Assembly: GCA_003994795.1 (NCBI GenBank)
Contig: AP018269.1
Coordinates: 4,365,677-4,429,676 of the forward strand
Length of the DNA stretch: 64,000 bases
Reading direction: 5' to 3'
Source of the DNA: Cylindrospermum sp. NIES-4074
GTDB lineage: Bacteria; Cyanobacteriota; Cyanobacteriia; Cyanobacteriales; Nostocaceae
In this document: one piece after another, positions 22,588-41,134 of the stretch
Layout of the letters: the number at the start of each line of letters is the position of its first letter
Numbering within the stretch: position 1 is the first letter of the stretch
Translations under genes and position numbers: made by a program
Notes under the pieces: model-generated
What the model saw: the letters and a program-made list of their open reading frames with translations, nothing else
Database searches by the model: none
Told to the model about the DNA's origin: nothing

Positions 22588-24690
22588 ATGAAAATAGAGT
22601 CTATAAGTTTTAAAGGGTTTCGCTGTTTTGGTGATACACCCACGACTGTAAAACTATCAGATGGCATCACAGCATTAATTGGAGCAAACGGTTCTGGAAA
22701 AACTGCTTTACTTGAAGGACTTTTGCGAGTTTTTGGCATAACAGGTAAACAGCGAACTATTTTGCGTACAGATTTCTATACATCTCCGGGTAAGCCAGAT
22801 GAAGATAGTAGCACCCGTGAGTTGTATATCGACATTCGCCTTACTTTTCCAGAATTGTCAGAAGATCCACCAATAACAGATCCAGCAGTACCAGCGTGTT
22901 TTCGTTACATGGTAGTAGATCAACCAAATGCTACACCTTTTGCGCGTGTGCGCCTTGAAGCGAAGTGGGTTGATGATGGAACAGTTGATGGAGATATTAA
23001 ACAAAATCTTTATTGGGTTCTCACTCCTAATGAATCACCAACAGATGAAGAGAAAAGACCCTGTGAACCAACTGACCGTGGGCGAATTCAAGTTCATTAT
23101 GTTCCAGCTATACGTGATCCCTCATCACAACTTACATCTAGTAGTGGGGCGATGATAGGGCGTTTACTTAAAGCTATAGCATGGTCTTCAGAAACGCAGG
23201 AGTCTATTCAAACTGCATCGGTGCAGATTCGAGAGGTGTTCGGAAAAGAATTAGCAATAAATAGTATCAATCAGACAATAGCAAGTAGGTGGAAAGAACT
23301 TCACAACGATACCTTTGATGCAGAACCAGAGTTCAACGTCGCCAGCAGACAATTTGAAGATATAATTCGCAAATTAAATATTGTATTCAGCCCAGATGAA
23401 TTTAATGGTGAACGTGATTTAGATGCTTTGAGCGATGGACAGAAATCACTTTTTTATTTTTCATTGGTAGCTTCTATTTTTGAAGTAGAAAGGAAGTTCA
23501 TTGATAAAAAACTTGCCATTACTAAAAATAAAATAGATGATAAGGAAAATCCTGAAAATACTGAGATTGATCAAGATAAGCCTTCAAGCACAGGTTTTCA
23601 TTCCAATCGACTCCAAACACCAGCTTTAACAATTTTGGCTTTTGAAGAACCAGAAAATCATCTAGCCCCTTATTTTCTGTCACGTATTATCAAACAAGTT
23701 CAGTCTATAGTTAACGAATATCCTGCTCAAGCAGTTTTAACAAGTCATTCTCCTGCGATTCTGGGGAGAATTGAACCAGAGGAAATCCGACATTTCAGAC
23801 TTGATATTAAATCAAGAACCGCAATTATTAGAGAAATAGAACTTCCTAGTAATACAGAAGAAGAAGCTAAATATATACGTGAAGCAATAAAAGCTTACCC
23901 AGAATTGTATTTTGCTAAGTTCGTGGTTCTTGGAGAAGGAGATTCTGAGCAAATAGTTCTGCCAAAATTAGCTTCAGCAATGGAATTAGAAGTAGATCCT
24001 GCATTTGTTGCTATAGTCCCATTAGGAGGACGTCATGTTAATTACTTCTGGAAACTACTTAATAACCTTAAAATACCATACGCTACACTTTTAGATTTAG
24101 ATATTGAACGAAACGGAGGTGGATGGGGTAGAATCAAGTACGCTTTAAAACAACTTCTTGAGATAGGAATAGATGCAGGATCTCTTCTTAAATTTAAAGT
24201 TGCTGAAGGGGATGAGCAGGAAATATCTAATGAAAGCCTGGAAACACTTCATACAAATAATGAGCCAATTGACGAAAATCACCCTTTAATCAAACACCTT
24301 GAAAGCTTTGGTGTATTCTACTCTGCACCACTTGATTTAGATATGACAATGTTATCATGCTTCCCTGATGCTTACAAAAGCATTGTTGTTAGCAATTCTG
24401 GCCCAAGAATTCCTGATAAAAACAAAGACAAAGCAAAATATGATTCTTACATAGATGGTGCTAAAAAGACTGTTCTTCGAGATGATGCTAATTTATCAAC
24501 ATATTCAGAAGAACGTAAGGAATTATTGCCTTGGTACAGATATTTATTTATAACCAAAAGCAAACCATCGACACATCTTCAAGCATTATGCAAAATTACT
24601 GACGAAAAGCTAAAAGAAAAAACGCCTCCTGTATTAGAAAGGATCTTAAACTATACCACTACAAAAATTAGTGCAGATAAAACATTATGA
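22588..24690 (+). CDS. gajA: GajA-like OLD-family ATP-dependent endonuclease (Gabija-type antiphage system)
   Basis: The 700-residue protein joins an ABC/SMC-type ATPase to a TOPRIM nuclease. Walker A is GANGSGKT (about residue 32), the ABC signature is LSDGQ (about 280), Walker B is LAFEEPENH (about 350), and an H-loop lies in LTSHSPAIL. The TOPRIM part starts with VVLGEGDSEQ (about 446, catalytic Glu) and continues with the DLDIE acidic pair (about 503). OLD nucleases paired with a UvrD-like helicase (class 2) form Gabija, where GajA nicks DNA when nucleotides are depleted. It is longer than typical GajA (about 580 residues), with a polar insert at about 310-340. Its stop overlaps the helicase start (ATGA). 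AT-rich, with no HIP1 site seen. Confidence 0.88.
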   Translation: MKIESISFKGFRCFGDTPTTVKLSDGITALIGANGSGKTALLEGLLRVFGITGKQRTILRTDFYTSPGKPDEDSSTRELYIDIRLTFPELSEDPPITDPAVPACFRYMVVDQPNATPFARVRLEAKWVDDGTVDGDIKQNLYWVLTPNESPTDEEKRPCEPTDRGRIQVHYVPAIRDPSSQLTSSSGAMIGRLLKAIAWSSETQESIQTASVQIREVFGKELAINSINQTIASRWKELHNDTFDAEPEFNVASRQFEDIIRKLNIVFSPDEFNGERDLDALSDGQKSLFYFSLVASIFEVERKFIDKKLAITKNKIDDKENPENTEIDQDKPSSTGFHSNRLQTPALTILAFEEPENHLAPYFLSRIIKQVQSIVNEYPAQAVLTSHSPAILGRIEPEEIRHFRLDIKSRTAIIREIELPSNTEEEAKYIREAIKAYPELYFAKFVVLGEGDSEQIVLPKLASAMELEVDPAFVAIVPLGGRHVNYFWKLLNNLKIPYATLLDLDIERNGGGWGRIKYALKQLLEIGIDAGSLLKFKVAEGDEQEISNESLETLHTNNEPIDENHPLIKHLESFGVFYSAPLDLDMTMLSCFPDAYKSIVVSNSGPRIPDKNKDKAKYDSYIDGAKKTVLRDDANLSTYSEERKELLPWYRYLFITKSKPSTHLQALCKITDEKLKEKTPPVLERILNYTTTKISADKTL

Positions 24691-26564
24691 CTTTTAACGT
24701 CCAAACTAAAAATTGGGTTCCAGTTGGAGTTAAAGAACTTGAACTCAATGCATATGAAGTAGTGTGTTCAAATACCAACTACTCTGTAATTGCTGGGCCA
24801 GGAGCGGGAAAAACAGAACTACTGGCTCAAAGAGCGTGCTATCTTTTCCAAACAGGTTTGTCTCCTGATCCTTATCGTATCCTTGCAATCAGCTTTAAAA
24901 CAGATTCTGCGAAGAATTTAAAAGAACGAGTAGCTGAGAGGTGTTCTAAACAAGATGCTTTGCGATTTGATTCTCTAACCTTTGCTGGATTTGCAAAAAG
25001 TATGTTAGATAGATTTATGGGAGCATTGCCTGAACTTTGGCGACCAAAGCATAATTATGAATTATACTTTCCGAAAGATTCTGAATATCAAGCTTTTTTG
25101 ATATCTCTTATAAAAGCAGCACCAAAAAATTTTATTAATTTACGAAATTTAAAACCTAAAGAATTTGAAAAGGATTGGGTTCTCGGTTCGATACTTCCAT
25201 TAGAGGGAATACCCGCAGAATCTATGAGAGGTATAGCGGCAAAAGAATGGTGGCGTGCTTGCTTACACCTTGGGAAAAATTCCACACTTACTTTCCAAAT
25301 GATTGAAAGGTTAGTAGAACTACTCCTGAGGACAAACCCTCAAATTACTAATGCATTGAGAGGGACTTATTCTCACGTTTTCATGGATGAGTTTCAAGAC
25401 ACAACACATACTCAATATGACCTTATTAAAACAGCTTTCCTCAATTCACAAGCCATCTTAACTGCTGTTGGTGACAATAAGCAGCAAATTATGCGGTGGG
25501 CTATGGCTATGGATGATGCTTTTGGTCTCTTTGAGAAAGATTTCCAAGCAGACCCAATTTCCTTAAATTCTAACTATCGTTCTTCTCAAGAACTGGTAGA
25601 AATACAACATCAATTAGCTCTGATAATTGATTCTAATTACACGTTAGTAGAATCAAATAAAGAGAAAAATATAACTGAAGAAGCTTGTGCAATTTGGGAT
25701 TTTGAAACCCCAAGATTAGAAGCAGAACATTTAGCAAAAACTATATCTAACGCTATCAATATTTATCAATTAAAGCCGAGAGATTTTGTATTACTTGTTA
25801 AGCAACTCCCAAAAAAATATGAACCCTGTTTAACAGAGGCGTTCAAGAACTATGATTTAAAAGTACGTTTAACATTACTAAATGATATTCTTGATAAGGA
25901 GCTTACTGAAATTTTTATTAACTTCCTGCGTTTTGGTTCTAAAGAAGGTACTAACCCCTACTGGGCTGACTGTAACAAAATTATTACAAGTATATATGGT
26001 ATAGATTCAGAAGATGTTAGAAGTACAAGAGAGTTACAAGATAAACTGGATTCCTTCCACTTGTATTTACAAAATAAGATGACTAACTTAGATTTTAGCG
26101 ACGATACACAAGTAAATTGTATCCTGGCAGATATCGAAAATTTTATTGGAAAAGATTATATCAAGCTTGCTTATCCACAATATAAGCAAGGTGACGAATA
26201 TGAGACAGTAATAAAAGCAATTAGTAATCAACTTCAAAACAGTTATATAAACACTAAAGATAAAGCATGGGAATCAATATTAGACGATTTTGAGGGGCTT
26301 GATTCTGTGCCATTAATGACAATTCATAAAAGTAAAGGGTTGGAATATCACACTGTTATTTTCGTTGGACTTGAAGATTCAGCATGGAGAAATTTCAAAA
26401 ACGAACCTCAAGAATCACGTTCTACATTTTTTGTTGCCTTCTCGCGTGCAATGCAACGTGTTATATTCACTTACTGTAAACAACGTGGTGCTAGGGATAA
26501 TATATCTTCTCTTTATCAAGTATTACAGGATGCAGGAGTGAAAACTGAGCAAATTCAGGTTTAA
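24687..26564 (+). CDS. gajB: GajB-like UvrD/Rep-family helicase (Gabija-type antiphage system)
   Basis: This 625-residue superfamily 1A helicase has its motifs in order: Walker A AGPGAGKTE (about residue 36), motif II FMDEFQDT (about 232), motif III VGDNKQQIMRW (about 261), LNSNYRSSQE (about 293), motif V MTIHKSKGLEYH (about 545) and motif VI VAFSRAMQRV (about 585). GajB is thought to sense DNA ends produced during infection and to stimulate GajA. Translation is coupled to gajA by a 4-nt overlap. The residue before Walker A that is usually Gln (Q motif) appears as LNAYE, so adenine recognition may be atypical. Composition is AT-rich like its partner, which suggests joint acquisition. Confidence 0.87.
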   Translation: MTFNVQTKNWVPVGVKELELNAYEVVCSNTNYSVIAGPGAGKTELLAQRACYLFQTGLSPDPYRILAISFKTDSAKNLKERVAERCSKQDALRFDSLTFAGFAKSMLDRFMGALPELWRPKHNYELYFPKDSEYQAFLISLIKAAPKNFINLRNLKPKEFEKDWVLGSILPLEGIPAESMRGIAAKEWWRACLHLGKNSTLTFQMIERLVELLLRTNPQITNALRGTYSHVFMDEFQDTTHTQYDLIKTAFLNSQAILTAVGDNKQQIMRWAMAMDDAFGLFEKDFQADPISLNSNYRSSQELVEIQHQLALIIDSNYTLVESNKEKNITEEACAIWDFETPRLEAEHLAKTISNAINIYQLKPRDFVLLVKQLPKKYEPCLTEAFKNYDLKVRLTLLNDILDKELTEIFINFLRFGSKEGTNPYWADCNKIITSIYGIDSEDVRSTRELQDKLDSFHLYLQNKMTNLDFSDDTQVNCILADIENFIGKDYIKLAYPQYKQGDEYETVIKAISNQLQNSYINTKDKAWESILDDFEGLDSVPLMTIHKSKGLEYHTVIFVGLEDSAWRNFKNEPQESRSTFFVAFSRAMQRVIFTYCKQRGARDNISSLYQVLQDAGVKTEQIQV

Positions 26565-26754: not shown

Positions 26755-27273
26755 TCAAAGCTTTGTACGTAATGAATTAGAAAGTCTCATTTTTTTGAAC
26801 GGAAGTAAAAACAGCCCGAAAACAGATGCTAAAGCAAGGATACTATTTGGCTCTGGAACAGAAACAACAGTGTAAGCAACAGTTTGATCACTGGTTCCAG
26901 TCGCATCACTAAGAACAATAAAATTTTCTGCGTTTACTGTAAAGGCATTGGTTTCAAATTGCAACCCTAATCCCTGTTGATCAATTCCTCCCAATAAATT
27001 AGTCAAAACCTTCGCTAAAGAATCATCCGCTTGGGTGTAGGACTTGCCACTGTAATTAGCAGAAATTATTAAACCTTCCGCAAGAGTTACTTCTTGATCT
27101 AATGCAGCATCCGAGTCAAAAGAGAAAGTACCTGTGAATGGATTCTGAGCATTAGAGCCAGAGAAATTATAAGTGAGGATTGCGGCTTGGGCTGGAATAT
27201 TTTCCGCTACTGAAAAAATCAGAGTAGTTACCGCAGTGACAGTTGCTAATTTCTTGAAGATGGAGTTAGTCAT
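26755..27273 (-). CDS. Secreted PEP-CTERM sorting-domain protein
   Basis: This 172-residue protein has a signal peptide (about residues 1-31, ending PAQAA), a beta-rich domain with YNFSGSNAQNPFTGTFSFD, and a C-terminal tripartite sorting signal. The signal consists of VPEPNS, a hydrophobic helix (ILALASVFGLFLLPF) and basic residues KKMR. PEP-CTERM proteins are processed by exosortase-type enzymes and delivered to the cell surface or extracellular matrix. The last nine residues extend past the basic cluster, slightly longer than usual. GAGGAGAAAAC precedes the ATG. The specific function is unknown. Confidence 0.82.
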   Translation of the reverse strand: MTNSIFKKLATVTAVTTLIFSVAENIPAQAAILTYNFSGSNAQNPFTGTFSFDSDAALDQEVTLAEGLIISANYSGKSYTQADDSLAKVLTNLLGGIDQQGLGLQFETNAFTVNAENFIVLSDATGTSDQTVAYTVVSVPEPNSILALASVFGLFLLPFKKMRLSNSLRTKL

Positions 27274-27394: not shown

Positions 27395-29311
27395 TTAATT
27401 TGGCGAACTCGTGAGTGCAGCTTTCATAGTTTGAAATATTTGGCTCTGATCAACTACTCCCCGAATACCGGGCACATCGTAAACACCGGAGCTATCTGTC
27501 ATCTGAAAACCTTGCCCCAAGAATCTTGTGAGAGTTGTTGAATAAGCACCTTGGTAGTAAACAGGCACAACCCGTCGGCTATGGCTACCCCAAAGATATT
27601 TTTTACTTGGATCAGAACCCCAGAAGTGACCGGCATCTGTGGGGTTGTGCTTGTTGAAAGTGATGTCCTTAGCGTTATATTTCAAACCTCTGGACACACT
27701 TGGATCTTGAGAAGTTAACTTCGAGGGAAAGTCATTATTTAATGTCAAGTAGTGGTCATGGTCAGCAGTAACTATGAGTAAGTTCTTACTCCAACCGCCA
27801 TTATTGTTAATCCAGGTAATGACTTCCTGAACTGCTTTGTCGAAGTCGTTCATGGTACCGATGAGGTTATCCATGTTGTTGTCATGAGCAGCCCAGTCGA
27901 TGTCACCTCCCTCTATCATTAGCCAGAAGCCATCTGGGTCTTTACCGAGAACGGTTAGAGCCGCTTTGCTCAGATCAGCCAAAGTGGGATTTTCGTTAAT
28001 TTCTCTGGCAATGAAGGTAGCGTCAGTTTCACCAGGAGAAAGAGGACGGACAGTATCAGGGTTAGGAGTTTGATTTGCAGAAGTTGTTGAACTAAAGAGT
28101 GTAAACTGTCCTAAACCTGTTGTGCTGTAGTCCCCTTTGGAAGAACTAACGGGAATGTTGCCGTCTTGACCACGAGCGCCATACAAACCAAATAACTTGC
28201 CGCCAGTATTTGGATCGACTGATGCAGCTGTGTTTAAAAGTGTCTGAGTTGCATTAGGCCCACGCTCCAAAAAGGTGTAGCCGTAGCGATTGTTAGGATT
28301 TGATGAAGCAGGCGCTGAACAAGCGGTTTCATTGCTCAGGGCTGTTTTACCAGTCAACTCTTTGTAAGTAGATGCCTTGATGTAAGTGTAGCTAATGTTA
28401 TTACAGACTGGCCCTGAACTGGTAGCGTTCTGGTGATCTAATGGATGACCGCCGCCCAAAATAACGGTAGGCTTAAAGTTCAGCAATGCCTGTTGCAAAA
28501 TACTGTCTTGATTAGCCTTGTTAGGATCGTAGTCACTATCGTACTTATTACGACGATTGACGAAAGAGACAGCAGCACCGGGGGTTGCGTGGCTAACTGG
28601 CACTGAAGTTACCACACCTGTAGACTTACCTTGTTTTTGGGCAATTTCTACGATGGTTTCCAACTTCTGCTCGTAAATGTCTACGCCCATCGCGTTGTTA
28701 TAGCTCTTTACACCTGTATAAAGGGTCGTAGCGGTGTTAGCAGAGTCGGGATAGCTATACTTGATGTACTCTTTGTCATAAGTACCAGGGTTAGCAGGGG
28801 ATAGGGGAATCCAAGGCGTAGGGCCTCCCTTAGTTACGTCATAGCCTGTTAAGTTACCTGGTAGTAGACTGTTACCGACATCTGTAGTGCCGGGATTAAA
28901 AGGAGTGGGCTGGAATGAAAAGCCTGGACGAAGAGGACTTAGACCTGTAGTTGCACTAGTACCATCTACGGCGGAGTTACCCGATAATTTGACTAGATTA
29001 TTGGGATTACTTGGTGTATTTGACTGGATGGTTGTGCCGTAGGTAGTTACCAGTGCATATCCTGTCAGAGTTTGGAAGCTAAGACCGGAGCCTTTCCCAG
29101 CTGTGTAAAAGGCTCCGCCTTTAGCAACGGCACCGGCCCGCGCCATATTCCAACCCATACCGTCGCCAATCATGATAATTACGTTAATTCCATTACCCGC
29201 AGCGAGGGCAGGCTGAATGGCAGGATTACCAAATACCAGCAGCATAGGACAGAGAAAGCTAGCCATAGCAAAAGCTAGCAACCGCCTATAGTTTCCCAAA
29301 AATGAACTCAT
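27395..29311 (-). CDS. phoA: Exported PhoA-type alkaline phosphatase
   Basis: This 638-residue metal-dependent phosphatase has a signal peptide (about residues 1-38, ending QPALAAG). Metal and catalytic motifs match the alkaline phosphatase superfamily: MIGDGMGWN (about 46), the nucleophile serine in YPDSANTATT (about 187), GGDIDWAAHDNN (about 466), TADHDH (about 515) and the late histidine in HSRRVVPVY (about 577). It would release phosphate from organic esters outside the cytoplasmic membrane using two zinc ions and magnesium. It is the last gene of a four-gene unit that starts with a zinc-type CDF transporter. It is larger than E. coli PhoA because of insertions between about residues 90 and 180 and 290 and 430. 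Confidence 0.9.
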   Translation of the reverse strand: MSSFLGNYRRLLAFAMASFLCPMLLVFGNPAIQPALAAGNGINVIIMIGDGMGWNMARAGAVAKGGAFYTAGKGSGLSFQTLTGYALVTTYGTTIQSNTPSNPNNLVKLSGNSAVDGTSATTGLSPLRPGFSFQPTPFNPGTTDVGNSLLPGNLTGYDVTKGGPTPWIPLSPANPGTYDKEYIKYSYPDSANTATTLYTGVKSYNNAMGVDIYEQKLETIVEIAQKQGKSTGVVTSVPVSHATPGAAVSFVNRRNKYDSDYDPNKANQDSILQQALLNFKPTVILGGGHPLDHQNATSSGPVCNNISYTYIKASTYKELTGKTALSNETACSAPASSNPNNRYGYTFLERGPNATQTLLNTAASVDPNTGGKLFGLYGARGQDGNIPVSSSKGDYSTTGLGQFTLFSSTTSANQTPNPDTVRPLSPGETDATFIAREINENPTLADLSKAALTVLGKDPDGFWLMIEGGDIDWAAHDNNMDNLIGTMNDFDKAVQEVITWINNNGGWSKNLLIVTADHDHYLTLNNDFPSKLTSQDPSVSRGLKYNAKDITFNKHNPTDAGHFWGSDPSKKYLWGSHSRRVVPVYYQGAYSTTLTRFLGQGFQMTDSSGVYDVPGIRGVVDQSQIFQTMKAALTSSPN

Positions 29312-29355
29312 TGCAGTGCCTCTTAAAGTTAATTGAGCAAGTTGTTAGCAGTTAA

Positions 29356-29568
29356 CTATTGATAAAAATTCGGTTCCAGATGAGTATTAGCGAAATCTGT
29401 ATTTGAGTACGCAGTCGCACTAGGTTGAGTAGAGGACGGGGTATAAATTTGGTTGGCGGCAGCAGCTGGTTGTTGGTTTGGTGCTATCAAAGACAATAGG
29501 AGGGCAACAACTACACCAGATATAAACCAAGCTAATAAGCGCTGGTACTTGTTCAATAATGGAATCAT
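29356..29568 (-). CDS. Small secreted protein with a phosphatase-like signal peptide and EPNFYQ tail
   Basis: The 70-residue product (ATG at 29568; a GTG lies one codon upstream) is mostly a signal peptide, KYQRLLAWFISGVVVALLL, followed by about 35 residues rich in Ser, Thr and Pro. Its first 38 residues resemble the leader of the alkaline phosphatase encoded 44 bp downstream (NYRRLLAF). Its end, LEPNFYQ, matches the end of the protein encoded upstream. The position inside a same-strand gene row and the shared leader argue that it is expressed. The function is unknown. Confidence 0.62.
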   Translation of the reverse strand: MIPLLNKYQRLLAWFISGVVVALLLSLIAPNQQPAAAANQIYTPSSTQPSATAYSNTDFANTHLEPNFYQ

Positions 29569-29656
29569 CACAGTGTCTCCTTTGTGGAAGTTAAAATTTT
29601 GCTTGATGCTGGTTAGGCAAAAAATTTATAGTCGATTCAACCGAAAATTTCCTTCA

Positions 29657-30130
29657 CTAGTAGAAATTAGGTTCGTTCTCAGTCTCAGTTATGTAAGGCA
29701 CATATTGAGAGACTACATTAGGTTGGGGTGCAGATGCAGGTTGGGAATACTTGACAAAACCTAAAAGCTGTGCAGCACTGCTAAAATACTTTGTCCAGGG
29801 TTGAACTTTGGGGTTTTTCTGCCAATTAGTTTGAGTGACGGTTATTGATAACAGCGGAACTAGTTGTCCATAGTGTTCACCTAGAATATTGACTGTGAGG
29901 TCTGTCACTTCAGGATTTGACTCAAAGGTTTGCTGAATGGATTTTTTAGCTAGGGCTTCTGCTTCTTGCACCAGAGTTGGGAAGCTTTGGTTTTTTTGGG
30001 AGCTGAGAGTTAAGTTCAGTTGCCCAGTTTCTGCACGCGCTGATATTGCCATACTTAAAGAGATGATGACAGAAAGCAGCAAAATCTGGGGATAAGTTGC
30101 CCAGTTTCCTGAGAACAGACTTAATCTCAT
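29657..30130 (-). CDS. Secreted hypothetical protein ending EPNFY
   Basis: The 157-residue protein (ATG at 30130; a TTG lies one codon upstream) has a signal peptide ending SARA (about residue 33), a mixed alpha/beta domain of about 85 residues with VQEAEALAKKSIQQTFE and VTDLTVNILGEHYGQ, then a Pro/Gln linker ending in ENEPNFY. The start codon overlaps the stop codon of the CDF transporter gene (TGATG), implying translational coupling. I do not recognise the family. Its place between a metal transporter and alkaline phosphatase suggests a role in the periplasm. Confidence 0.75.
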   Translation of the reverse strand: MRLSLFSGNWATYPQILLLSVIISLSMAISARAETGQLNLTLSSQKNQSFPTLVQEAEALAKKSIQQTFESNPEVTDLTVNILGEHYGQLVPLLSITVTQTNWQKNPKVQPWTKYFSSAAQLLGFVKYSQPASAPQPNVVSQYVPYITETENEPNFY

Positions 30131-30864
30131 CAAATTAGCTCCTGTAAGGATGGAAATAATAACTTCTCTGCTTGTTGGCGATGCTGTTCGCTACAGTCTG
30201 TTGCTGGCAAACTACAAAAGCATTCAGCATTGGCAATCTTGGCGACTTTACCACGCAGACAATGAATGCTCTGAATCACCTGATTTGCAGCAAACAGGGC
30301 TATTAATGCCGCCACCAGCAAGCTGATGACGCCATCTGCCCAAGTCCAATTTAGCCAGATAACTGCGATCGCCGCTAGCACCGTTCCCACCGAACTCACT
30401 AAATCCGCCAAGATGTGAAGAAATACACCCCTGATATTGAGGTCATGATGGCTACATCCATGTAAATAAAGAGCATTAAAGCTGTTAACCCCCAGGCCAA
30501 GCAATGCGGTTGCTAACATCGGTAAGCCAAGAATCTCTGGAGATGGAGATTGCAGCCGAACCAGCGCTTCTTTCACTATCCAGCCAGCAATACAAGCCAA
30601 ACCTATGCCGTTAACTAGAGCTGCCAGCACTTCCAATCGATAGCGCCCAAATACAGTTCTCTTGGACATAGATCGAGATAACAATACAGCCACCAGTGCC
30701 AGACCCAAAGCTGCTACATCCGAAAGAATATGCTCTGCATCTGCTAAAAGGGAGAGGCTATGGCTCAAAATTCCCGCACTTAATTCCACACCAAAAAACA
30801 TACTCAGTAAAATTAGAGCAGTCCACAGTGCCTGGAGCTTTTGCTTAACTTGGTTTGATTGCAT
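30130..30864 (-). CDS. Zinc-type cation diffusion facilitator without a standard C-terminal domain
   Basis: The 244-residue protein has six membrane helices. Both metal-site helices carry the HxxxD signature of zinc-selective members: HILSD in helix 2 (about residue 44) and HILAD in helix 5 (about 149). A histidine-bearing loop, HGCSHHD, precedes helix 5. After helix 6 only about 40 residues remain, with CFCSLPATDC, instead of the usual ferredoxin-like dimerisation domain. It is the first gene of a unit leading to alkaline phosphatase, a zinc enzyme; supply of zinc to the periplasm is a possible role, though CDF proteins usually serve in metal export. A Fur/Zur-like palindrome lies 237 bp upstream. 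Confidence 0.87.
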   Translation of the reverse strand: MQSNQVKQKLQALWTALILLSMFFGVELSAGILSHSLSLLADAEHILSDVAALGLALVAVLLSRSMSKRTVFGRYRLEVLAALVNGIGLACIAGWIVKEALVRLQSPSPEILGLPMLATALLGLGVNSFNALYLHGCSHHDLNIRGVFLHILADLVSSVGTVLAAIAVIWLNWTWADGVISLLVAALIALFAANQVIQSIHCLRGKVAKIANAECFCSLPATDCSEQHRQQAEKLLFPSLQELI

Positions 30865-31100
30865 TGAACCTGAACTAACGGGGAAATTGATTGGAAGCTG
30901 ACTCGAATGCCAAGCTCTCAGTCAGATGCTTCTGTACTGAAAGCACCATGCTTAACACTTAAATATCTATACATACCTGCACAACTTTATCAATATAATG
31001 ATTAACACCTTAGTAAGGGATGTTTAATTTTAGGTAAAGCTAATATCAACATCTACACAACTAGCAGTTGTGATAATTTTTTCATCACTTATTTCTCAAC

Positions 31101-31113
31101 GATAATTATTATC
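31101..31113. promoter_or_regulatory. Fur/Zur-like palindrome upstream of the CDF transporter unit
   Basis: GATAAT-T-ATTATC is a perfect 6-1-6 inverted repeat, the core of known cyanobacterial Fur-family operators (Zur boxes of the TGATAATNATTATCA type). A partial copy, TGTGATAATTTTTTCATCA, lies 20 bp before it. The position, between the 3' end of the gene at 31133 and the CDF start at 30864, fits control of the CDF-phosphatase unit. Function is inferred from the motif alone. Confidence 0.5.
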
Positions 31114-31132
31114 ACGTCACATGATACCATGT

Positions 31133-31825: not shown

Positions 31826-34800
31826 TTAACTAATCTCCCCTGTATACGAAGTAAAATTATTGCTGTTTAAGCTATAATTGAAATTTATCAGAGTAGCTAA
31901 AAGGATATTATTGGCATCAAAAATTAGAGTATTATTCCCAGACAAGGAAGTATGCAAACTGCCAAAAGATAGATTGCTACTTAATCCAATTAAATCTCCT
32001 TCTGCTAGGCGTAAATCCTGAATATTATCAGCATCGGTGGTTGTTCCAGGTTGCAAGACAAATATATCTTGTCCTGTTCCACCTACTAATAAATCACGAC
32101 CTAAACCACCAATCAAAATATCATTGCTATCTCCACCATAAAGGCGATCATTTCCAGCATTTCCAAACACTAAATCATTGCCAATACCACCATCTAAGGT
32201 ATCACGACCTAAACCACCTTTAAGAGTATCATCTCCCCCAACACCACTCAGGGTATTCATCCCATTGCTGGTGGAAGCATCAATGATATCATCACCAGAC
32301 CCACCCACAATACTGTTATCACCTGTTAGTCCTATAATTGTTTGTCCTGTAGGGTTGGTAATGGTAGTTTTGTTAATCGGCTGAATTGCTACTAAATCAA
32401 AGTTAGTGCTAACAATACCTCCTTTACCATCAGCAGCTTCTAATGTCACCGAAGATGTTTCTGTAATGGCAGGAGTACCAGTGAATTTGTATTGGTTGGT
32501 GTTGGTATCTAGTGCAAAATTCAGCCAGCTTGGTTTTGCAGTTAAGCTATAAATTAGTGAATCTCCTTCAGCATCAAATAAGATATTATTAGGTAAAGTG
32601 TAAACCCATGCAATTCCTGTTTGTAGTTGTTGACTGGGAATCTGATTCATAACCACAGGAGCATCATTAACTGAGGTAATATTCAAGGTATGAAAGACAG
32701 AATTGCTGTTAGTTGTACCATCATTAACAGTAAATTGAATAGTACGTGGTGTAGTTGTGGGATGATCACTGAGGTTTTGATAACTGATGGAACGGATAGC
32801 AGTTTGATAGTTAGCAACTGTCGCTGTTCCAGTCAAAGTTAATAAACCTGTATTGCTATTGAAGCTGCCTGTAATCCCGTTTTGGTTGGCAAACTTGAGA
32901 ATATCTTGATTGGAGATGTAGTTACCAATGCTGACGGTAGCACCTGTTAGATAAGTGCTATCTACGTCATTAATGGTTAAGTTACTATCAATAACAAGAT
33001 TGGCATTTTCGATGTAACTTAGAGTGCTATTAGTGGAGGTGATTATGGGTGATTCATCAATATTGGTGATGTCAATATTTAACTGTTTTTCATAGGTTAA
33101 ACCGCCTTGGTCTGTGGTTTTAAGGCGGACACTGTAACTATTCTTAGTTTCAAAGTCGAGAACAGCGTTAGTTTTGAGTTGATTGCCTGTAATACTAAAT
33201 AGGCTGTTGTCGGTTTCACTTACGTCTGAAACTAAGGTGTAGGTAAAGGTATCGCCATCATCAGTGTCAGTGCTACTTAATGTAGATACTAATGTCCCTA
33301 TTGGTTGATTTTCGCTAATAATATTAGTGCTAAGGTTAATATTGCTGGGGGCATCATTGACTGGTTTGACCTGAATGTTCACTTGTTGTATGGTTGTGCC
33401 ACCATGTCCATCTGTGACTGTGTATTCAAAGGTGGAAAGCCCATTAAAGTTGGTAATGGGGTTGAATACAATATTATTACCATCAGGACTAAGAGTAACT
33501 GTTGCTTTGGCAGCATTGGCAACTGATGTAATCTTTAATGCGTGACCATCTGCATCACTATCATTTGCCAGCAATGTACTAGAAAGAATATTTAAAGTTG
33601 TATCTTCATTCGTTTCTAAAGTGTCAGCAGCAGTTGTGGGGGCGACATTTTGATGAAAAATGAAATTATTAGCACTTAAAGCACTGGGATGGACTCCGTA
33701 AAGGGCAACATATTGATTCGGAGTGTTTCCTGTAAAATAAATCCAGGTATATTGATTGCCATTGAGCTTAGTGTTCTGTAGCCGCAAATCTTGTAAAGAA
33801 GTAACGTTATTAATTGCTGAAAAGTCAATTTTCTCATTGGGATCAGAGGGGTTAAAATCCCAAATTAAATTGTTGGCAACTAAACCATTCGCCCCTATAC
33901 TAAATCCATAGGATTCGCTATCAGGCACAACTACAAAGCGATCGCTCCCTGCACCACCATAAAGATTGTCTTTGTCTCCTTCAAGGTACAGGACATCATT
34001 GCCATCGTCACCTTGGAGAATGTCATCTCCTTCACCCCCAAATAGCACATCATCCCCTGCTCCAGCGTTGATAATGTTCGCCAAAGTGTTACCAATTAAC
34101 TGATTGTTTGTGGCGTTACCAGTGGCATAGATCGCTGAATCAATGAGGATTAGGTTCTCTAAATTTGGCTTGTCTACTATGGTGTAGTCAATTGCACTCT
34201 GAACAGTATCAGTACCTTCATTAGCATTTTCAACAATAGTATTGCTAGCCTGATCAATTATGTAAGTATCATCGCCTAAACCTCCAATTAGAGTATTATT
34301 GCTGCCTTGCCCATCGAGAATGTCATCGCCTGCCAGTCCTGTGAGGGTATTGTTAGCACTATTACCAGTGATAATATTATCAAGTTCGTTGCCTGTCCCA
34401 TTGACAGCACCTACTGCCAGCACTAGATTTTCAACATTGGGGGCAAGGGTATAGTTAACTGTGGAAATGACGGTATCGATACCTTCGTTGAGGAGTTCAG
34501 TGACAATATCACCAGAGTTGTCTACAAAATAAGTGTCATTGCCATCCGCGCCAATTAAAGTATCCGCACCTTCTACACCATTGAGAATATTATCAGCTAT
34601 ACTTCCTTGTAAACGGTTATTGAAGCGATTTCCTGTCCCGTTAATTGATTCTAATCCTGTCAACGTCAGGTTTTCAATGTTCTCTGAAAGAGTGTAGGAA
34701 ACATTAGCTTGCACGATATCGCTGCCTTCGTTAGCGCGTTCGATGATGCTATCCGCTCCATTATCAACAACATAGGTATCATTACCAGCACCGCCGACCA

Positions 34801-37800
34801 ACGTATCTGTGCCACCCTTGCCATCCAATACATTGTCACCCGTGTTACCAACAATGCGATTGGGAGCATCATTGCCCGTACCATTGATATTTGCACTGCT
34901 ACTTAGCACCAAGTTTTCCACTTCTGCTGCTAAAGTGTAACTGACATTGGATTGAACTGTATCAAAACCACCACCGGGTAACTCAATTACTATGTCATCC
35001 AGATTATCTACAACATAGGTGTCGTCTCCAATCCGACCAGTCATTATATCAGCCCCTGTATGTCCGTCAATTGTATTAGCACCAGCATCACCAGTCAGAC
35101 TGTCAGGTGATGCAGTACCGATAATAAAACCTGAAATTACAGGCGGTTGATAGAAGATGAAATTGGCAGAGGATAGCTGTAAAGAAGTTACATTGTATAG
35201 GTCTATATGTTGACCTGATGTTGACCCTTCCAGATAAACTTGCGTTGAAGTTGCGCCGAACAGTATATCTTGAGTAAATATTAACTGGCTAAAAGACGTA
35301 AGATTCGTAAAAGAAGTGAGATCAATCTTTTCTTGATGATTATTAACTTCAAAATCACCAATGAAATTACGCCAGTCACTACCTCGTTGAGCTGGATCAT
35401 TAACAACTATAAACAAATCGTTACCTTGACCACCTGAAGCATAGGCATAAACAGATCCAGGTTGTGCAAAGTAATCACCTTCTAGATAAAAGGTGTCATT
35501 GCCTTCGTTCCCTTCAAGATAATCGTTACCTGAACCGCCAATCAGCACATCGTCCCCTACCCCGCCATATAAGGCATCGTCTCCAGCACCGCCTTCAAGC
35601 CAATCGTTGCCAGGTGGTAATGGCTCTAAACCCGCAGATAGATCAACGTGATCTCCAAATAAGATATCATTGCCATCGCCACCATCAAGCAAATCGTTAA
35701 TGCCACGGGACGCAATCGTATCATTGCCTGCCAACGCAAAGGCACTAATATTGCTAGCAGGATTAGGGATAATTCCCTGATTATCGTTGCCTTGTGTACC
35801 CACTGGTAACAGCTCTGCCTGTATATGATCTCTATACAAGCTCAACAAAGCTTCATCTCTCATTAATCCAAAGCATTGTTCTGTAAGCTGGGCAGGTTGT
35901 ACGTTTTTTACCACAATGGTTTGTCCCGTCCCCAACTGCACTACGGTGTCATTGCCTTGAGCAACAAAGTTCAAATTTTTGTAGCTGTAGATGTTGTCAT
36001 AACCTACTAGCAGGATTTTTTCTCCTTGTGCAGCTAAGGTAAAGTCGGTAATCGTATCGGTGCTGCCTGCTTCCTTGCGGATTACAAAGATGTCTCCATC
36101 AGTACCACCTGTCAAAGTGTCATTACCAAGTCCACCGTCCAACCAGTCACGCCAACCACCGCCAGTGATATTGTCATTACCTCGCCCACCTTCCAAGCGA
36201 TTTGCCTGACTATTGCCAATGAGCGTATCGTTACCGTCACCAGCAAACACAAGCTCGATATTGGAATTAATCGTCAGATTTCGTCCAGCAATAGTGCTGG
36301 TAGTTCCAGTATTGAGGTTGATGGTGCTATTACCATCGACAGCAGCAGCAATGAGCGCATCTACACCGCCGCTGTCGGTCAAATTGCTCCGATTAGTGCC
36401 TGGTGTGATGCTGGTATTGCCAAACTCATTAGTGTAAACATATATATCATTGCCGTCATTTGGTTGACCGTACAGATCCAGTTTCCAACTTTTAAGCTCA
36501 CCCACTGTTCCACTAGCAGCATCAATCACTCGCAGTTGCCAGTTACCTCCGCTGGCTTCACCACGCACATGGGTAGAGTTCAGGCTAAAGCCTAATGTCT
36601 CAGGATTGGTATACCCTCGATCACTGGCTCCACTGCCTAATGCTTTTCCTGGACGATTGACAAGAATACTCTTTGTACCACTAGGCGCGGTTAGCTCAAT
36701 AATCAAATCGCCTGGAATAGCGTGTTCTAACTCTATCGAAATTTGAGCCGATTCAATCGTCAGACCACTTTGCATTGCAAGGGTACTTGTTACGCCAGTT
36801 AGATTTCCGTCAGGGATAGTCCAATTCAGTAGACCACTATTGCCCTTCACCCAATCCAAATATTCAAGGGTATTTTGTGACGGCCATACCTCTGCTAACC
36901 TTACTGCGGCTTTAGCATCCACACGCCCAAATCCGAAGTCATGGCTGGTATGCATACCACCACCGTTCCAGTTTTTGGCGGCATTAATTGTCCAGTCGGT
37001 GCTGTTTGCACCGTTGGCATTTTCTACCTGCGTTGCACTCATTGCCAAAATAGTTTGAACATCTCTGTATCCCAGATTGGGATTTGCCTCCAACATTAGA
37101 GCTACTACACCTGAAACAATGGGCGCGGCAAAGCTAGTTCCAGAACCTAATGTATAGTCTTGTCCAAAGGTTGATCCATCATCGTTAGTGGCACTATCAC
37201 CAGTCGTTGACACATAAGCACCCGCAGCACTTACCAATATGTTCGCTCCGGGATTACTTAAGCGGGTTGTACTAGGTTGTAGTCCACCCAAGTTATTTGC
37301 CGGATTAATCCCAGCGACTGTAATTGTTGCCCAGTTAGCCATAAGAGGATTTGTATTACTGTTACCTCCCGCCTGGCGATCGTTTCCAGAGCTAAAGACG
37401 ATGACTGTTCCCAATCCTCCCCGACCTTCCTCAATCGCCTTACCAATGCCCTCATCTATAGTGCCCAGTGGCAAAACAACGAAGGGGAAAGGGGTACCCA
37501 CTCCCCAGGAGTTGTTGACTACATCGTATTCTTTGAAGTGGGTGGTAGCTTGAGAAATTTGCAGTACAGCTTCGTCTGAGGCAAGTCCTTCAGTGCGTGG
37601 CACAGTATAGCCTGATAAGGTAGCACCATAGGCAACTCCTACACCACCCTCACCATTTTTTGCAGCGACCATAACACCTGCAACACTTGTAGCATGGGCA
37701 CTGAAGGTTTCTGGCACATTGCTAACCCCACTACTATTCAGGTTGTTCAGCCATGTTTTGTCAACATTGGACTGCAAGTCTGGGTGGCGATAGTTAAAGA

Positions 37801-40800
37801 CATCGGCAGTAGTGCTAAAAGGCATTGACGGCTCAAACTGACCAATTCTGACTCCCTTACCGCTATAACCTGGATTTAAACTGGTTCCCCAAGCCCCAAA
37901 AACATTACTCTCAGTCAGATAAGTTTGCTGAACAAGTAAGGGGTCACTAGGTAAATCCGGTGTCAGCAAACTAACTTGTGCTTTTATTGGCTCAGTAGCA
38001 CCAGCTTGAGGATTGGCTGGGTCAATCACACCAAGTGCAGGGTGTCCAAAACTATCGGCTACGGTGTAGCTAAATGCCATTACGCCATTATAACCAGGAG
38101 TAGGGGTGAAGATAATGTCACCATTGGCTGCCATTGTCACCGTGCCTCCTTTGGCTTCCATTACGGCACTAATGTGCAATGGATTGGTGCTGCTTTGGCG
38201 CAGATTAATATCATTAACTAGGAGTTGGGATTGACGAATGGTTTGAGGAACAGTACGACTCAAAGGTTGTCCACTGGCATTTGTCGTTAGACTATCTTTG
38301 ACGGGTGCAATGATGGCATTGGGATCATTAAGGTTAAGGCTACTAATATCAGAAAATCTGAGTCTTTCAATGCCTGTCAAAGTGTCAGAGCCGTCACTGC
38401 CTCCGGCTTTGTCAGTTCGCCTGTCAGTTATGAGCCAGATCGCTTTGTTGGCATTTCCATCTCCATCAGTGATCTGCATAAGTTGGTAGTCGCCAAAACC
38501 ACCTGTGTATTCAGCAGTATCAATGCCATCACCACCGTTAATTTGGTCGTCGCCTTGTCCACCCTTGAGAACATCGTTGCCCTTGCCACCATTGAGGAGA
38601 TCGTCATCTTGTCCACCTTCTAGAAGGTCGTTGCCTGCTCCGCCATAGAGTTGATCGCGTCCACGATGTCCACGTACTAGGTCATCGCCAGCACCACCAT
38701 CAACCAAGTCGCTACCTTCATTACCCGAAAGGGCATCGTCAGCAGCACCTCCCATTATGATGTCATCGCCTTCTTTACCCTCAATAAAAACATTGCTACG
38801 TCCACCGCCAATCAAGATATCGTCACCACGTCCACCAATGGCAACTTCGGCTTCGATTTGGCTTAAGTTAAGTGTGACACCCGTTTGCTCTGCTGCTCCA
38901 CCTATCACATGAATAATGTCAAAACCAGAGCCAGCATGGATATGCCTGGGATTATCTTGGGCATCAATCAACAGCACATCATCGCCAGCACCGGCGTCAA
39001 AGCTGTCTGAACCCTGTCCCCCTGCGAGCCAATTGTTGTTAGCATCGCCAATTAAAGTATCATTGCTTTGTCCACCTGTAGCGTTGCGAACCTGTTTTGC
39101 TGCTACATCTATGATTTCACCGATGTTGCTATAGCTACCGTAAGTACTACCCCCACCTTGTGAGGTAATTAAAGTACCATTGCCTGATGACGTAAAAGTA
39201 TGTCCGTTGGGGTTGGATAAGAAATTAGCAGCGAGAATTTCACTGGTTTGACCATTTTGGATAAAAGTGCTACTAGCTAATATTTCATTACCATCACGGA
39301 TTAGACCTGATTGGTTATTCGCACTTAGGTTAATTTGAGTAATGCCAAATTCAGCTAAAGTTTTTAGCTCACCATTATCAGTTTGAGCATTATGGTTGAC
39401 ATCTTGCCAGATTTTGATTTGATTCCATGTGGCATCAGCACTGGTAAAAATATGATCGTGGTTACTGTCGAGACTTTGTAGAGCAGCAAAACCATTAGCA
39501 TAGATTTTGGTGGCAGGATTGCCATTAGTTCCGGCTGTTGTATTAAAGTATTCTGAGAGTATTTCCGAGATATTATCAATTTTGCCGTTATTGTTGAGAT
39601 CCAGCACAATTAAGCCATCTTCGGAAGTGACCCACCCTGTTTGTTCTAAGCTACCACCGTCATGGTCAATATCAAATAAAACAGGATTGTCGTATGAAGT
39701 GAGTTTGACTCCATCACCATTAAGATCAATTACTAATGGGTCTATTGGTAAAAAATCTAAGGAAAGAGAACTCAAATCTGCTATCAAAGCGTCAAATATA
39801 TTAACGGTGTGATAGTTAAAAAAGTCGCTACCGTAAAAGAGATCAAATGTGTCTAGGCTAAAATCGGGGAAGAAATTGGGATTTAAAGCCTGAGCGCCTG
39901 GTCGCCAGCCATCCGTGATAATACTACCTGCATAATTGAAACTAAAATCATTATTTAATGCTCCATCGTACCAACCTTGTATATCACCATCCCATAGTAC
40001 AAGATCATTAGTTCCATCTACATCTGTATCACCAAAGTCTATTAATAGTCCATCATCATCTAAATCAGAGGGGAGCAAGTTAATGAGATCGAGATATGTA
40101 TTGTCGGGTACAAACAGATCGAGCATCATGCTACTGTTGTTCGGTTGGATGTGAATGCTTCCATTACTATCCTGCGTAAGTCCACCTGCATTGAAGCGAG
40201 TAACACTATCTTCTCTTCCTGAAAAGAAAGCGTAACCAGAACCATCTGGTTGTTGGAAAATGTAGAAATGGGTTTGTGGATCGTAATAATCTACTCTCCC
40301 ATCTAATGTGGTTAGTTTAAATACTCCAGTATCAGGGTTACGAGTTAAGTTGTCGCCAAAGTTTTGGATTAGAACTTCATTTCCAGACGGGTCAAGTAAA
40401 CTGTAAGTACCAACTGAAGAGCTTTCCAATCTAAACCCATCGAGAAATTCAAACCTAATTGTTCCACCTGATGAGTTTAGATCAAATGTTGTAATCGTCT
40501 GATACCGAATATCTTGAACGACTTCTTGTGCTGCTTGTTCACCTATATCTTGAAAGCGAATAAAATTATGAATCCTGGGATCCCATTCTCCATTATTAGA
40601 CTTATTTACCTCATCCCAGAGTTTTTCTGGTGGAAATTTAGGAGGCCAATTAGAGTCAGCAGCTTTAGCTTGTATTTTAGTACCAATATAAGTTGGATTG
40701 CTTTTCCATTGGTTTTCTAAAGCCCAAGCAACTCCACCAGTAGATGAAGGCGTGCTTCCTGGTTGATTGATATCCAATACATTAGGAGAGTTATAAGCAT

Positions 40801-41134
40801 CAATTATCATCTGACGTGCTATGGTGACTATATCATCCCAGGTGCCACCATATTTAAGCATTGTTTCTCCCAATGCCACTCCTATCCTATTATTATGATA
40901 GTCAATCTCGTGTTGAACCTGATTTTGTGTTGAGTCTAATTCGTGAAATGTAAGAGCTTCCCGCGCTACATCTGGTCCATATTGACGAGTTAGTTCTGCA
41001 GCCCATAAAATATGACGATAGGCATCCGCTGGTCCGTCAGTACGTCCTGGTAAACCAGAGTAATTTGCTTCTTGATCAGCCTGTTTAACAAAAGTCTCAC
41101 GAAACTGAGAAGCAACCCAAATAGTATTGACCAT
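31826..41134 (-). CDS. Giant RTX protein with subtilisin-like, P/homoB and cadherin-like domains
   Basis: The 3102-residue protein has no signal peptide and ends in an RTX/Asp-rich region, as expected for type I secretion. In order: an N-terminal domain with ADAYRHILWAAELT and an HEIDYHNN stretch (about 1-150); an EF-hand-like calcium segment DLNGDGVKL (about 468); RTX nonapeptides (about 770-870); a subtilisin-like domain (about 1085-1400) with HATSVAG and GTSFAAP but EPS where the catalytic Asp is expected; a proprotein convertase P domain (about 1430-1555); several RTX blocks with repeated GNDTYVVDN segments (about 1630-2450); VCBS/cadherin-like repeats (about 2490-2900); and terminal RTX repeats (about 2935-3102). 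Calcium-dependent folding outside the cell and adhesion or proteolysis are likely. No secretion genes are adjacent. Confidence 0.88.
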   Translation of the reverse strand: MVNTIWVASQFRETFVKQADQEANYSGLPGRTDGPADAYRHILWAAELTRQYGPDVAREALTFHELDSTQNQVQHEIDYHNNRIGVALGETMLKYGGTWDDIVTIARQMIIDAYNSPNVLDINQPGSTPSSTGGVAWALENQWKSNPTYIGTKIQAKAADSNWPPKFPPEKLWDEVNKSNNGEWDPRIHNFIRFQDIGEQAAQEVVQDIRYQTITTFDLNSSGGTIRFEFLDGFRLESSSVGTYSLLDPSGNEVLIQNFGDNLTRNPDTGVFKLTTLDGRVDYYDPQTHFYIFQQPDGSGYAFFSGREDSVTRFNAGGLTQDSNGSIHIQPNNSSMMLDLFVPDNTYLDLINLLPSDLDDDGLLIDFGDTDVDGTNDLVLWDGDIQGWYDGALNNDFSFNYAGSIITDGWRPGAQALNPNFFPDFSLDTFDLFYGSDFFNYHTVNIFDALIADLSSLSLDFLPIDPLVIDLNGDGVKLTSYDNPVLFDIDHDGGSLEQTGWVTSEDGLIVLDLNNNGKIDNISEILSEYFNTTAGTNGNPATKIYANGFAALQSLDSNHDHIFTSADATWNQIKIWQDVNHNAQTDNGELKTLAEFGITQINLSANNQSGLIRDGNEILASSTFIQNGQTSEILAANFLSNPNGHTFTSSGNGTLITSQGGGSTYGSYSNIGEIIDVAAKQVRNATGGQSNDTLIGDANNNWLAGGQGSDSFDAGAGDDVLLIDAQDNPRHIHAGSGFDIIHVIGGAAEQTGVTLNLSQIEAEVAIGGRGDDILIGGGRSNVFIEGKEGDDIIMGGAADDALSGNEGSDLVDGGAGDDLVRGHRGRDQLYGGAGNDLLEGGQDDDLLNGGKGNDVLKGGQGDDQINGGDGIDTAEYTGGFGDYQLMQITDGDGNANKAIWLITDRRTDKAGGSDGSDTLTGIERLRFSDISSLNLNDPNAIIAPVKDSLTTNASGQPLSRTVPQTIRQSQLLVNDINLRQSSTNPLHISAVMEAKGGTVTMAANGDIIFTPTPGYNGVMAFSYTVADSFGHPALGVIDPANPQAGATEPIKAQVSLLTPDLPSDPLLVQQTYLTESNVFGAWGTSLNPGYSGKGVRIGQFEPSMPFSTTADVFNYRHPDLQSNVDKTWLNNLNSSGVSNVPETFSAHATSVAGVMVAAKNGEGGVGVAYGATLSGYTVPRTEGLASDEAVLQISQATTHFKEYDVVNNSWGVGTPFPFVVLPLGTIDEGIGKAIEEGRGGLGTVIVFSSGNDRQAGGNSNTNPLMANWATITVAGINPANNLGGLQPSTTRLSNPGANILVSAAGAYVSTTGDSATNDDGSTFGQDYTLGSGTSFAAPIVSGVVALMLEANPNLGYRDVQTILAMSATQVENANGANSTDWTINAAKNWNGGGMHTSHDFGFGRVDAKAAVRLAEVWPSQNTLEYLDWVKGNSGLLNWTIPDGNLTGVTSTLAMQSGLTIESAQISIELEHAIPGDLIIELTAPSGTKSILVNRPGKALGSGASDRGYTNPETLGFSLNSTHVRGEASGGNWQLRVIDAASGTVGELKSWKLDLYGQPNDGNDIYVYTNEFGNTSITPGTNRSNLTDSGGVDALIAAAVDGNSTINLNTGTTSTIAGRNLTINSNIELVFAGDGNDTLIGNSQANRLEGGRGNDNITGGGWRDWLDGGLGNDTLTGGTDGDIFVIRKEAGSTDTITDFTLAAQGEKILLVGYDNIYSYKNLNFVAQGNDTVVQLGTGQTIVVKNVQPAQLTEQCFGLMRDEALLSLYRDHIQAELLPVGTQGNDNQGIIPNPASNISAFALAGNDTIASRGINDLLDGGDGNDILFGDHVDLSAGLEPLPPGNDWLEGGAGDDALYGGVGDDVLIGGSGNDYLEGNEGNDTFYLEGDYFAQPGSVYAYASGGQGNDLFIVVNDPAQRGSDWRNFIGDFEVNNHQEKIDLTSFTNLTSFSQLIFTQDILFGATSTQVYLEGSTSGQHIDLYNVTSLQLSSANFIFYQPPVISGFIIGTASPDSLTGDAGANTIDGHTGADIMTGRIGDDTYVVDNLDDIVIELPGGGFDTVQSNVSYTLAAEVENLVLSSSANINGTGNDAPNRIVGNTGDNVLDGKGGTDTLVGGAGNDTYVVDNGADSIIERANEGSDIVQANVSYTLSENIENLTLTGLESINGTGNRFNNRLQGSIADNILNGVEGADTLIGADGNDTYFVDNSGDIVTELLNEGIDTVISTVNYTLAPNVENLVLAVGAVNGTGNELDNIITGNSANNTLTGLAGDDILDGQGSNNTLIGGLGDDTYIIDQASNTIVENANEGTDTVQSAIDYTIVDKPNLENLILIDSAIYATGNATNNQLIGNTLANIINAGAGDDVLFGGEGDDILQGDDGNDVLYLEGDKDNLYGGAGSDRFVVVPDSESYGFSIGANGLVANNLIWDFNPSDPNEKIDFSAINNVTSLQDLRLQNTKLNGNQYTWIYFTGNTPNQYVALYGVHPSALSANNFIFHQNVAPTTAADTLETNEDTTLNILSSTLLANDSDADGHALKITSVANAAKATVTLSPDGNNIVFNPITNFNGLSTFEYTVTDGHGGTTIQQVNIQVKPVNDAPSNINLSTNIISENQPIGTLVSTLSSTDTDDGDTFTYTLVSDVSETDNSLFSITGNQLKTNAVLDFETKNSYSVRLKTTDQGGLTYEKQLNIDITNIDESPIITSTNSTLSYIENANLVIDSNLTINDVDSTYLTGATVSIGNYISNQDILKFANQNGITGSFNSNTGLLTLTGTATVANYQTAIRSISYQNLSDHPTTTPRTIQFTVNDGTTNSNSVFHTLNITSVNDAPVVMNQIPSQQLQTGIAWVYTLPNNILFDAEGDSLIYSLTAKPSWLNFALDTNTNQYKFTGTPAITETSSVTLEAADGKGGIVSTNFDLVAIQPINKTTITNPTGQTIIGLTGDNSIVGGSGDDIIDASTSNGMNTLSGVGGDDTLKGGLGRDTLDGGIGNDLVFGNAGNDRLYGGDSNDILIGGLGRDLLVGGTGQDIFVLQPGTTTDADNIQDLRLAEGDLIGLSSNLSFGSLHTSLSGNNTLIFDANNILLATLINFNYSLNSNNFTSYTGEIS

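Follow-up and report, generated by a model that had tools for sequence, protein, structure and literature searches.

A conserved cyanobacterial gene unit groups a CDF transporter and small tail-sharing exported proteins with the alkaline phosphatase PhoA

A 64,000-nt stretch of the Cylindrospermum sp. NIES-4074 genome (GCA_003994795.1, contig AP018269.1, positions 4,365,677 to 4,429,676 of the forward strand; hereafter the window) carries genes for a CDF-family transporter, two small exported proteins named S157 and S70, and a PhoA alkaline phosphatase (Table 1). That these four genes form one functional unit around the phosphatase, as a first-pass annotation of the window had proposed, is well supported by an order and strand kept in several cyanobacterial families. 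The reading that we favour, tentatively and at somewhat less than an even chance, is that the unit is an export-side zinc-metallation and escort module for PhoA as a secreted zinc phosphatase. All four open reading frames (ORFs) were found intact on the minus strand, as annotated; the 1-nt overlap between the CDF and S157 genes and the 44-nt gap between S70 and PhoA were also as described, whereas the gap between S157 and S70 is 88 nt when counted from the ATG, not 87.

Table 1 Features of the phosphatase unit in the window
Feature	Position	Strand	Description
CDF-family transporter	30130..30864	-	244 aa; Cation_efflux and TIGR01297 matches
S157, exported protein	29657..30130	-	157 aa; predicted small alpha/beta domain, C-terminus EPNFY
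S70, exported protein	29356..29568	-	70 aa; one predicted leader helix, variable linker, tail HLEPNFYQ
PhoA alkaline phosphatase	27395..29311	-	638 aa; Sec-type leader, metal ligands intact, PF00245
PEP-CTERM-like exported protein	26755..27273	-	Frequent fifth gene 3' of PhoA; weak below-cut-off PEP-CTERM matches
Zur-box-like inverted repeat TGATAATAATTATCG	31100..31114	-	250 nt upstream of CDF start

Neither S70 nor S157 had a Pfam or NCBIfam match above cut-off. A search of 149 genomes, including the window's own, gave 13 S70 matches at E ≤0.0015, with mostly noise among the weaker matches listed below this level. In the 12 loci outside the window that were read with their flanks, S70 invariably shared the strand of PhoA and lay immediately upstream of it, with a CDF gene upstream in 11 (the exception being L073) and S157 present in two, both from the window's genus. 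When 388 genomes of the class were searched with a profile, members turned up in other families as well, and at 19 further places S70, a PhoA sequence and a CDF gene stood on one strand without exception, accompanied by S157 at 11 of them; PhoA is cut short in L109 and split over two frames in L110. The 19 do not include the weaker matches in G387 and G462, which fall in longer ORFs at E 2e-4 to 3e-4. Neither search involved picking sequences by their tails. The order CDF-(S157)-S70-PhoA thus held in 11/12 and 19/19 loci, all picked via S70; many loci are near-copies of each other, and the same DNA stands under two names in L063/L120 and in L135/L283.

Within the window's family (217 genomes), 53 of the 54 PhoA genes scoring at least 980 bits had a same-strand S70 no more than 700 nt upstream, G581 being the sole exception; this comparison also included, by search match alone, PhoA genes without S70 in G523, G031, G076 and G522. 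Once hits on PhoA leaders and on other long ORFs had been removed, 61 S70 matches were considered, of which two lacked an adjoining PhoA match, one near a contig end (G594) and one whose leader runs into another gene (G059, locus L278). The search used alignment A6, whose rows came from a search with a tail-picked profile, and it missed the variant S70 in L284 and L285. Judged by these matches and their neighbours, S70 is a genuine small-protein family tied to PhoA.

In the window, S157 and S70, otherwise unrelated, each carry a hydrophobic leader of Sec type with an A-x-A motif and end in EPNFY and EPNFYQ, respectively, so the shared tail seen at first pass is indeed there. In ten chosen unit-bearing genomes, a 15-base EPNFY pattern gave 25 matches, compared with 23 for a backwards control; 13 of the 25 are exact C-termini of unit S70 or S157, and the remaining 12 never fall at the end of an ORF of more than 45 codons (exact motif only; variants were not searched), from which we conclude that the shared tail is not due to chance. 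Nor does EPNFY behave as a general PEP-CTERM-like sorting tag, the exact tail occurring only on unit S70 and S157 among ORFs of more than 45 codons in these genomes. The two window tails use different codons, indicating that the protein sequence was kept rather than DNA copied, and in L152 S157 and S70 share all of their last 12 residues.

Lack of tail conservation had been named beforehand as a refutation of the proposal, and the tail proved to be conserved. AlphaFold2 predicted a single helix for S70 (residues 4-28) and gave low confidence for the remainder, and beyond the leader the tail, of pattern H-x-E-P-N-F-Y-Q, is the main conserved part. The 76 S70 sequences include 60 distinct ones, in which the tail reached 4.32 bits at H, 4.02 at E, 4.11 at N, 4.08 at F, 4.32 at Y and 3.81 at Q, with 3.15 at P and 2.88 at the residue after H, compared with about 1 to 2.4 in the linker and 1.6 to 2.7 in the five residues preceding the tail; these values come from a profile built on alignment A1 plus members picked by the tail pattern, which favours tail conservation. 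The same profile underlies the 4-nt overlap of CDF and S70 seen in many loci and the comparison of 81 PhoA described below. Fifty-six of the 60 end in [EA]xN[FY]Y followed by at most three residues; the remaining four have the ends HLERSFY, SNHLPSL and SNHLPNF (twice), the SNHLP-type ends lying mostly where the CDF gene is downstream of PhoA. S157 encoded next to PhoA ends in E-[PAS]-N-F-[YF] in 18/18 distinct tails. The resemblance of the S70 leader to the PhoA leader, also claimed at first pass, was recovered in part of the loci and not in all: 38 of 74 own pairs, many of them from near-copy loci, scored above the 99.9th percentile of shuffles (41.5), and 30 exceeded even the highest-scoring control, an S157 leader at 51, chiefly in Nostocaceae. 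S70 profiles also match PhoA leaders.

S157, by its profile matches, is a member of a large cyanobacterial family, with relatives in 110 of the 149 genomes and, with a related profile, in 205 of the 388. Its predicted structure contains a confident small domain at about residues 41-120, for which a fold search returned no convincing relative. Among 48 distinct S157 loci (29 + 20, one common to both sets), S157 stood upstream of a same-strand PhoX, assigned by Pfam, in ten: L008, L010, L013, L237, L240, L243, L244, L245, L252 and L254, the last being the same place as L007, through which its PhoX was assigned. This share is not an unbiased rate owing to the choice of loci, the profile (alignment A5) having four PhoX-linked rows of nine and the top 20 matches outside the PhoA unit having been fetched. 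In addition, L251 has a PhoX fragment beside S157, and in L243 a window-type CDF gene lies upstream of the S157-PhoX pair. Eight of the ten PhoX-linked S157 end in D-P-G-F, D-P-A-F, Q-P-G-F or Q-A-A-Y, followed in seven by R-D-D; those of L245 and L252 have different ends. In eight further S157 loci the tail is of RDD type and no PhoX was seen adjoining, and G238 and G414 have a PhoA unit without S157 and, elsewhere in the genome, an S157 ending in SEPNYYDNP. Other S157 relatives (L026, L027, L028, L030, L031 and L032, from several families) lie near conserved hypothetical genes or, going by a visual check of ORF starts, near caspase-like or CHAT-like ORFs.

Both the transporter and the phosphatase keep their metal-site residues. 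The window CDF scored well over the Pfam cut-off (Cation_efflux, 7.3e-34, 117.7 bits; cut-off 26.6) and matched TIGR01297 at 2.1e-44, and its zinc-type HxxxD/HxxxD residues (H45, D49, H150 and D154), which presumably lie in transmembrane helices 2 and 5, were unchanged in 15/15 CDF proteins compared. Pfam gave no match to the C-terminal ZT_dimer domain in the window CDF, and this domain was found in the CDF of L106 and L119. CDF proteins without ZT_dimer are known, so the window protein stays a member of the wider CDF family. In its closest relatives the CDF has an N-terminal extension; the matching stretch of the window (about 30865-30960, minus strand) is out of frame with the CDF core, which starts at its own ATG, and the frame break is either a real change or a sequencing error. 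PhoA likewise exceeded the Pfam cut-off (PF00245, 3.4e-53, 181.5 bits; cut-off 24.4) and is the only gene with PF00245 found in this 7.7 Mb genome. Its D50, S190, T243, E467, D472, H476, D517, H518 and H577, taken to correspond to the nucleophile and metal ligands of the E. coli enzyme, were unchanged in 15/15 PhoA compared.

When loci were fetched by PhoA rather than by S70 (80 loci plus the window), and CDF and S70 were sought within 3.5 kb, the PhoA tree, whose root is uncertain as in the second tree below, separated into two sides. On side one (52 PhoA), a CDF gene accompanied 48 and S70 accompanied 47; on side two (29 PhoA), both counts were 0/29, six of these loci having less than 3.5 kb of contig upstream (L170, L172, L173, L175, L180 and L195). 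The gaps on side one are L135, the same DNA as G581, which has CDF without S70; L165, which has only an S157 ending in EPNFY; and three Calothrix genes (L158, L159 and L162) without either. By eye, the PhoA leaders of these three and of L286 and L287, which also have no adjoining S70 or CDF, end in a lipoprotein-type cysteine, and four of the five form one clade nested within the S70-bearing PhoA in the second tree, from which the L286 row dropped out. Of the 29 PhoA on side two, 20 lack a signal peptide, and the remaining nine carry a Sec-type leader. The unit thus accompanies the soluble, Sec-exported PhoA of one clade, and the nine Sec-type enzymes on side two indicate that a Sec leader alone does not demand it.

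The distribution of leaders bears on the main rival to loading and escort, namely that S70 and S157 are adaptors that would hold soluble PhoA at the surface or guide it across the outer membrane, with EPNFY docking and the CDF protein only balancing zinc. The nested clade with lipoprotein-type leaders and without S70 or CDF pulls mildly towards such placing, as do the side-two PhoA with neither signal peptide nor unit. However, the losses with a lipoprotein-type leader may go back to one event, the unit is dispensed with by nine Sec-type PhoA, and placing leaves unexplained why CDF is kept and lost together with S70; we hold this explanation to be somewhat improbable, although it is the strongest competitor.

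The Fur/Zur-like palindrome reported ahead of the unit was confirmed at 31101-31113, and the 15-mer spanning it departs at one position from the consensus TGATAATNATTATCA, which we take to be the cyanobacterial Zur box. Such sites, with at most two mismatches, occurred in 14 of 72 CDF upstream regions versus 13 of 654 control regions, and shuffles gave an expectation of 0.45 for the 72; the Fisher p of 2e-8 for this enrichment is overstated, the rows being related. The window genome contains ten sites at one mismatch to this box, and no known Zur target was confirmed beside any of them, the one candidate noted by eye having no Pfam match, which leaves the motif unvalidated for this genome. For arrays of three 8-bp Pho boxes, the best triple in the window had a p of 0.085, and among 14 loci tried, 0/200 shuffles were as good in L113 and in L151.

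A co-induced CDF-phosphatase pair is already in print, since an RNA-seq table for Nodularia spumigena assigns to operon 904 the extracellular alkaline phosphatase nsp12920 and the CDF nsp12930, with log2 fold changes of 6.64/7.75 and 7.14/4.97, respectively, at 7/14 days without phosphate, and has a PhoX-like gene, nsp12940, next to the pair in operon 905 (PMC9846622); nsp12920 and nsp12940 are also listed in PMC3610870. The operon assignment favours co-transcription of the CDF and phosphatase genes in that species. In the parts of PMC9846622 covered here, the pairing is not discussed. In the g7 genomes a PhoX gene likewise lies upstream of CDF (L283), and phoA of Anabaena 7120 (alr5291) is given as a singleton with Pho boxes (PMC1906773). 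No account of S70 or S157 was found in the open-licence literature on CDF and alkaline phosphatase in cyanobacteria, on EPNFY or on alr5291. The strong induction of the neighbouring Nodularia genes would suit co-regulation only, in which phosphate or zinc control is common to CDF, PhoA and the small proteins, with no mutual action. We consider this quite unlikely, because the association is strict in one PhoA clade and absent in the other, the gene order is kept, and the tail common to the two small proteins (exact EPNFY) ends no other long ORF in the ten genomes. Highly improbable, finally, is that the tail peptides are inhibitors or proenzyme-like caps keeping PhoA inactive until it is outside: a short conserved end peptide on a low-confidence, apparently disordered linker would suit blocking as well as docking, and S157 tails do differ between PhoA-linked and most PhoX-linked members, but the eight RDD-tailed relatives with no PhoX seen adjoining show that the tail type is not simply set by the neighbour.

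We return to zinc loading and escort. Because many cyanobacteria keep the transporter, the small tail-sharing proteins and the phosphatase as one unit, the arrangement suggests a dedicated way to load or guide the phosphorus-scavenging PhoA outside the cell interior. Three features, namely how strictly the genes pair, the order they keep and the metal-site residues, favour a model in which exported zinc supplies a phosphatase maturing extracytoplasmically. Of the interpretation given at first pass, the single unit around the phosphatase stands, and the zinc link rests on the intact PhoA ligands, the CDF zinc-site residues and the Zur-like box that a minority of lineages have; the proposed device for loading or placing PhoA would fit these data. 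In the mechanism that we envisage, the genes would be co-transcribed when phosphate is short, with zinc exerting part of the control, the CDF protein would move Zn2+ from cytoplasm to periplasm, and PhoA would be exported unfolded and take up its metals in the periplasm. S70, with S157 where present, would meet PhoA or the CDF protein via the E-P-N-F-Y tail, and this contact would place zinc insertion, folding or onward passage of PhoA at the site where zinc arrives. The direction of transport, the docking partner and the effect on PhoA are what we infer here. Several observations weigh against zinc loading and escort: the nine Sec-type PhoA of side two do without the unit; the lipoprotein-type sub-clade has lost S70 and CDF though it also would mature in the periplasm; L073 has S70 and PhoA with no adjoining CDF, and L135 has CDF and PhoA without S70; S157 is missing from most Nostocaceae units (present in 2/12); and 58 of the 72 CDF upstream regions have no Zur-like box, a motif that is itself unvalidated in the window genome. 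A bolder extension, which we rate as unlikely, is that EPNFY is a docking code by which S70 and S157 adaptors recognise their phosphatase at zinc insertion, in an extracytoplasmic metallochaperone system where S157 with D-P-G-F-R-D-D tails would serve PhoX likewise and the tail would help to specify the client.

The closest known parallels to the unit come from vertebrates and from other cyanobacteria. In the vertebrate early secretory pathway, ZnT5-ZnT6 and ZnT7, which belong to SLC30 of the CDF family, resemble it in coupling a CDF zinc transporter to an alkaline phosphatase whose zinc is acquired outside the cytosol, ZnT5 and ZnT7 being reported to activate alkaline phosphatases (PMC7949119; PMC9168625). 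The window unit, the function of which is predicted from sequence, differs in adding dedicated small partners. No operon and no small tail-sharing exported partners are known in the vertebrate systems. Operon 904 of Nodularia likewise joins a CDF gene to that of an extracellular alkaline phosphatase, but neither S70 nor S157 is named in Table 1 of PMC9846622, on which this comparison relies. In Synechococcus WH8102, the metallothionein SmtA/BmtA has been proposed as zinc supplier to PhoA (PMC3865332, PMC9337993); the likeness is a proposed dedicated zinc supply to a cyanobacterial alkaline phosphatase, and the difference is that this metallothionein is cytosolic and is described there without a transporter or exported partners. 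ZepA of Anabaena (PMC10957091) is also a Zur-controlled exported zinc-handling protein of cyanobacteria, but it serves zinc uptake, and the word phosphatase is absent from the main text of that paper. For extracytoplasmic metal supply to cyanobacterial zinc enzymes the unit names candidate genes, namely a CDF paired one-to-one with a phosphatase and two small proteins whose short tail is readily altered; zinc loading and escort, if true, would provide a bacterial parallel to ZnT-dependent phosphatase activation and would connect the supply of zinc with the scavenging of phosphorus in cyanobacteria, diazotrophs included.

Downstream of PhoA, a relative of the PEP-CTERM-like gene lies within 700 nt in 33 of the 66 loci having room for it. 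In L067, L071, L101 and L121, longer proteins matching its domain stand in its place, several times over in each of the first three loci; that of L121 has a DUF4114 domain at its end. In L280 (7607-7894, minus strand), a remnant ORF fuses a leader of S70/PhoA type to the end of PhoA; neither a CDF nor a full PhoA is nearby, and the unit was apparently lost as a whole. Adjoining the unit in the window on the opposite strand (22588-26564) is a Gabija-type anti-phage pair, GajA-like (E 5e-251) and GajB-like (E 6e-214) by PADLOC, with a 4-nt overlap; homologous ORFs, recognised by their sequence ends, lie at the same side in L064. Upstream of the unit and on its strand (31826-41134) lies the gene for a 3102-aa protein with RTX repeats and subtilase, P-domain, cadherin and Ig-like domains.

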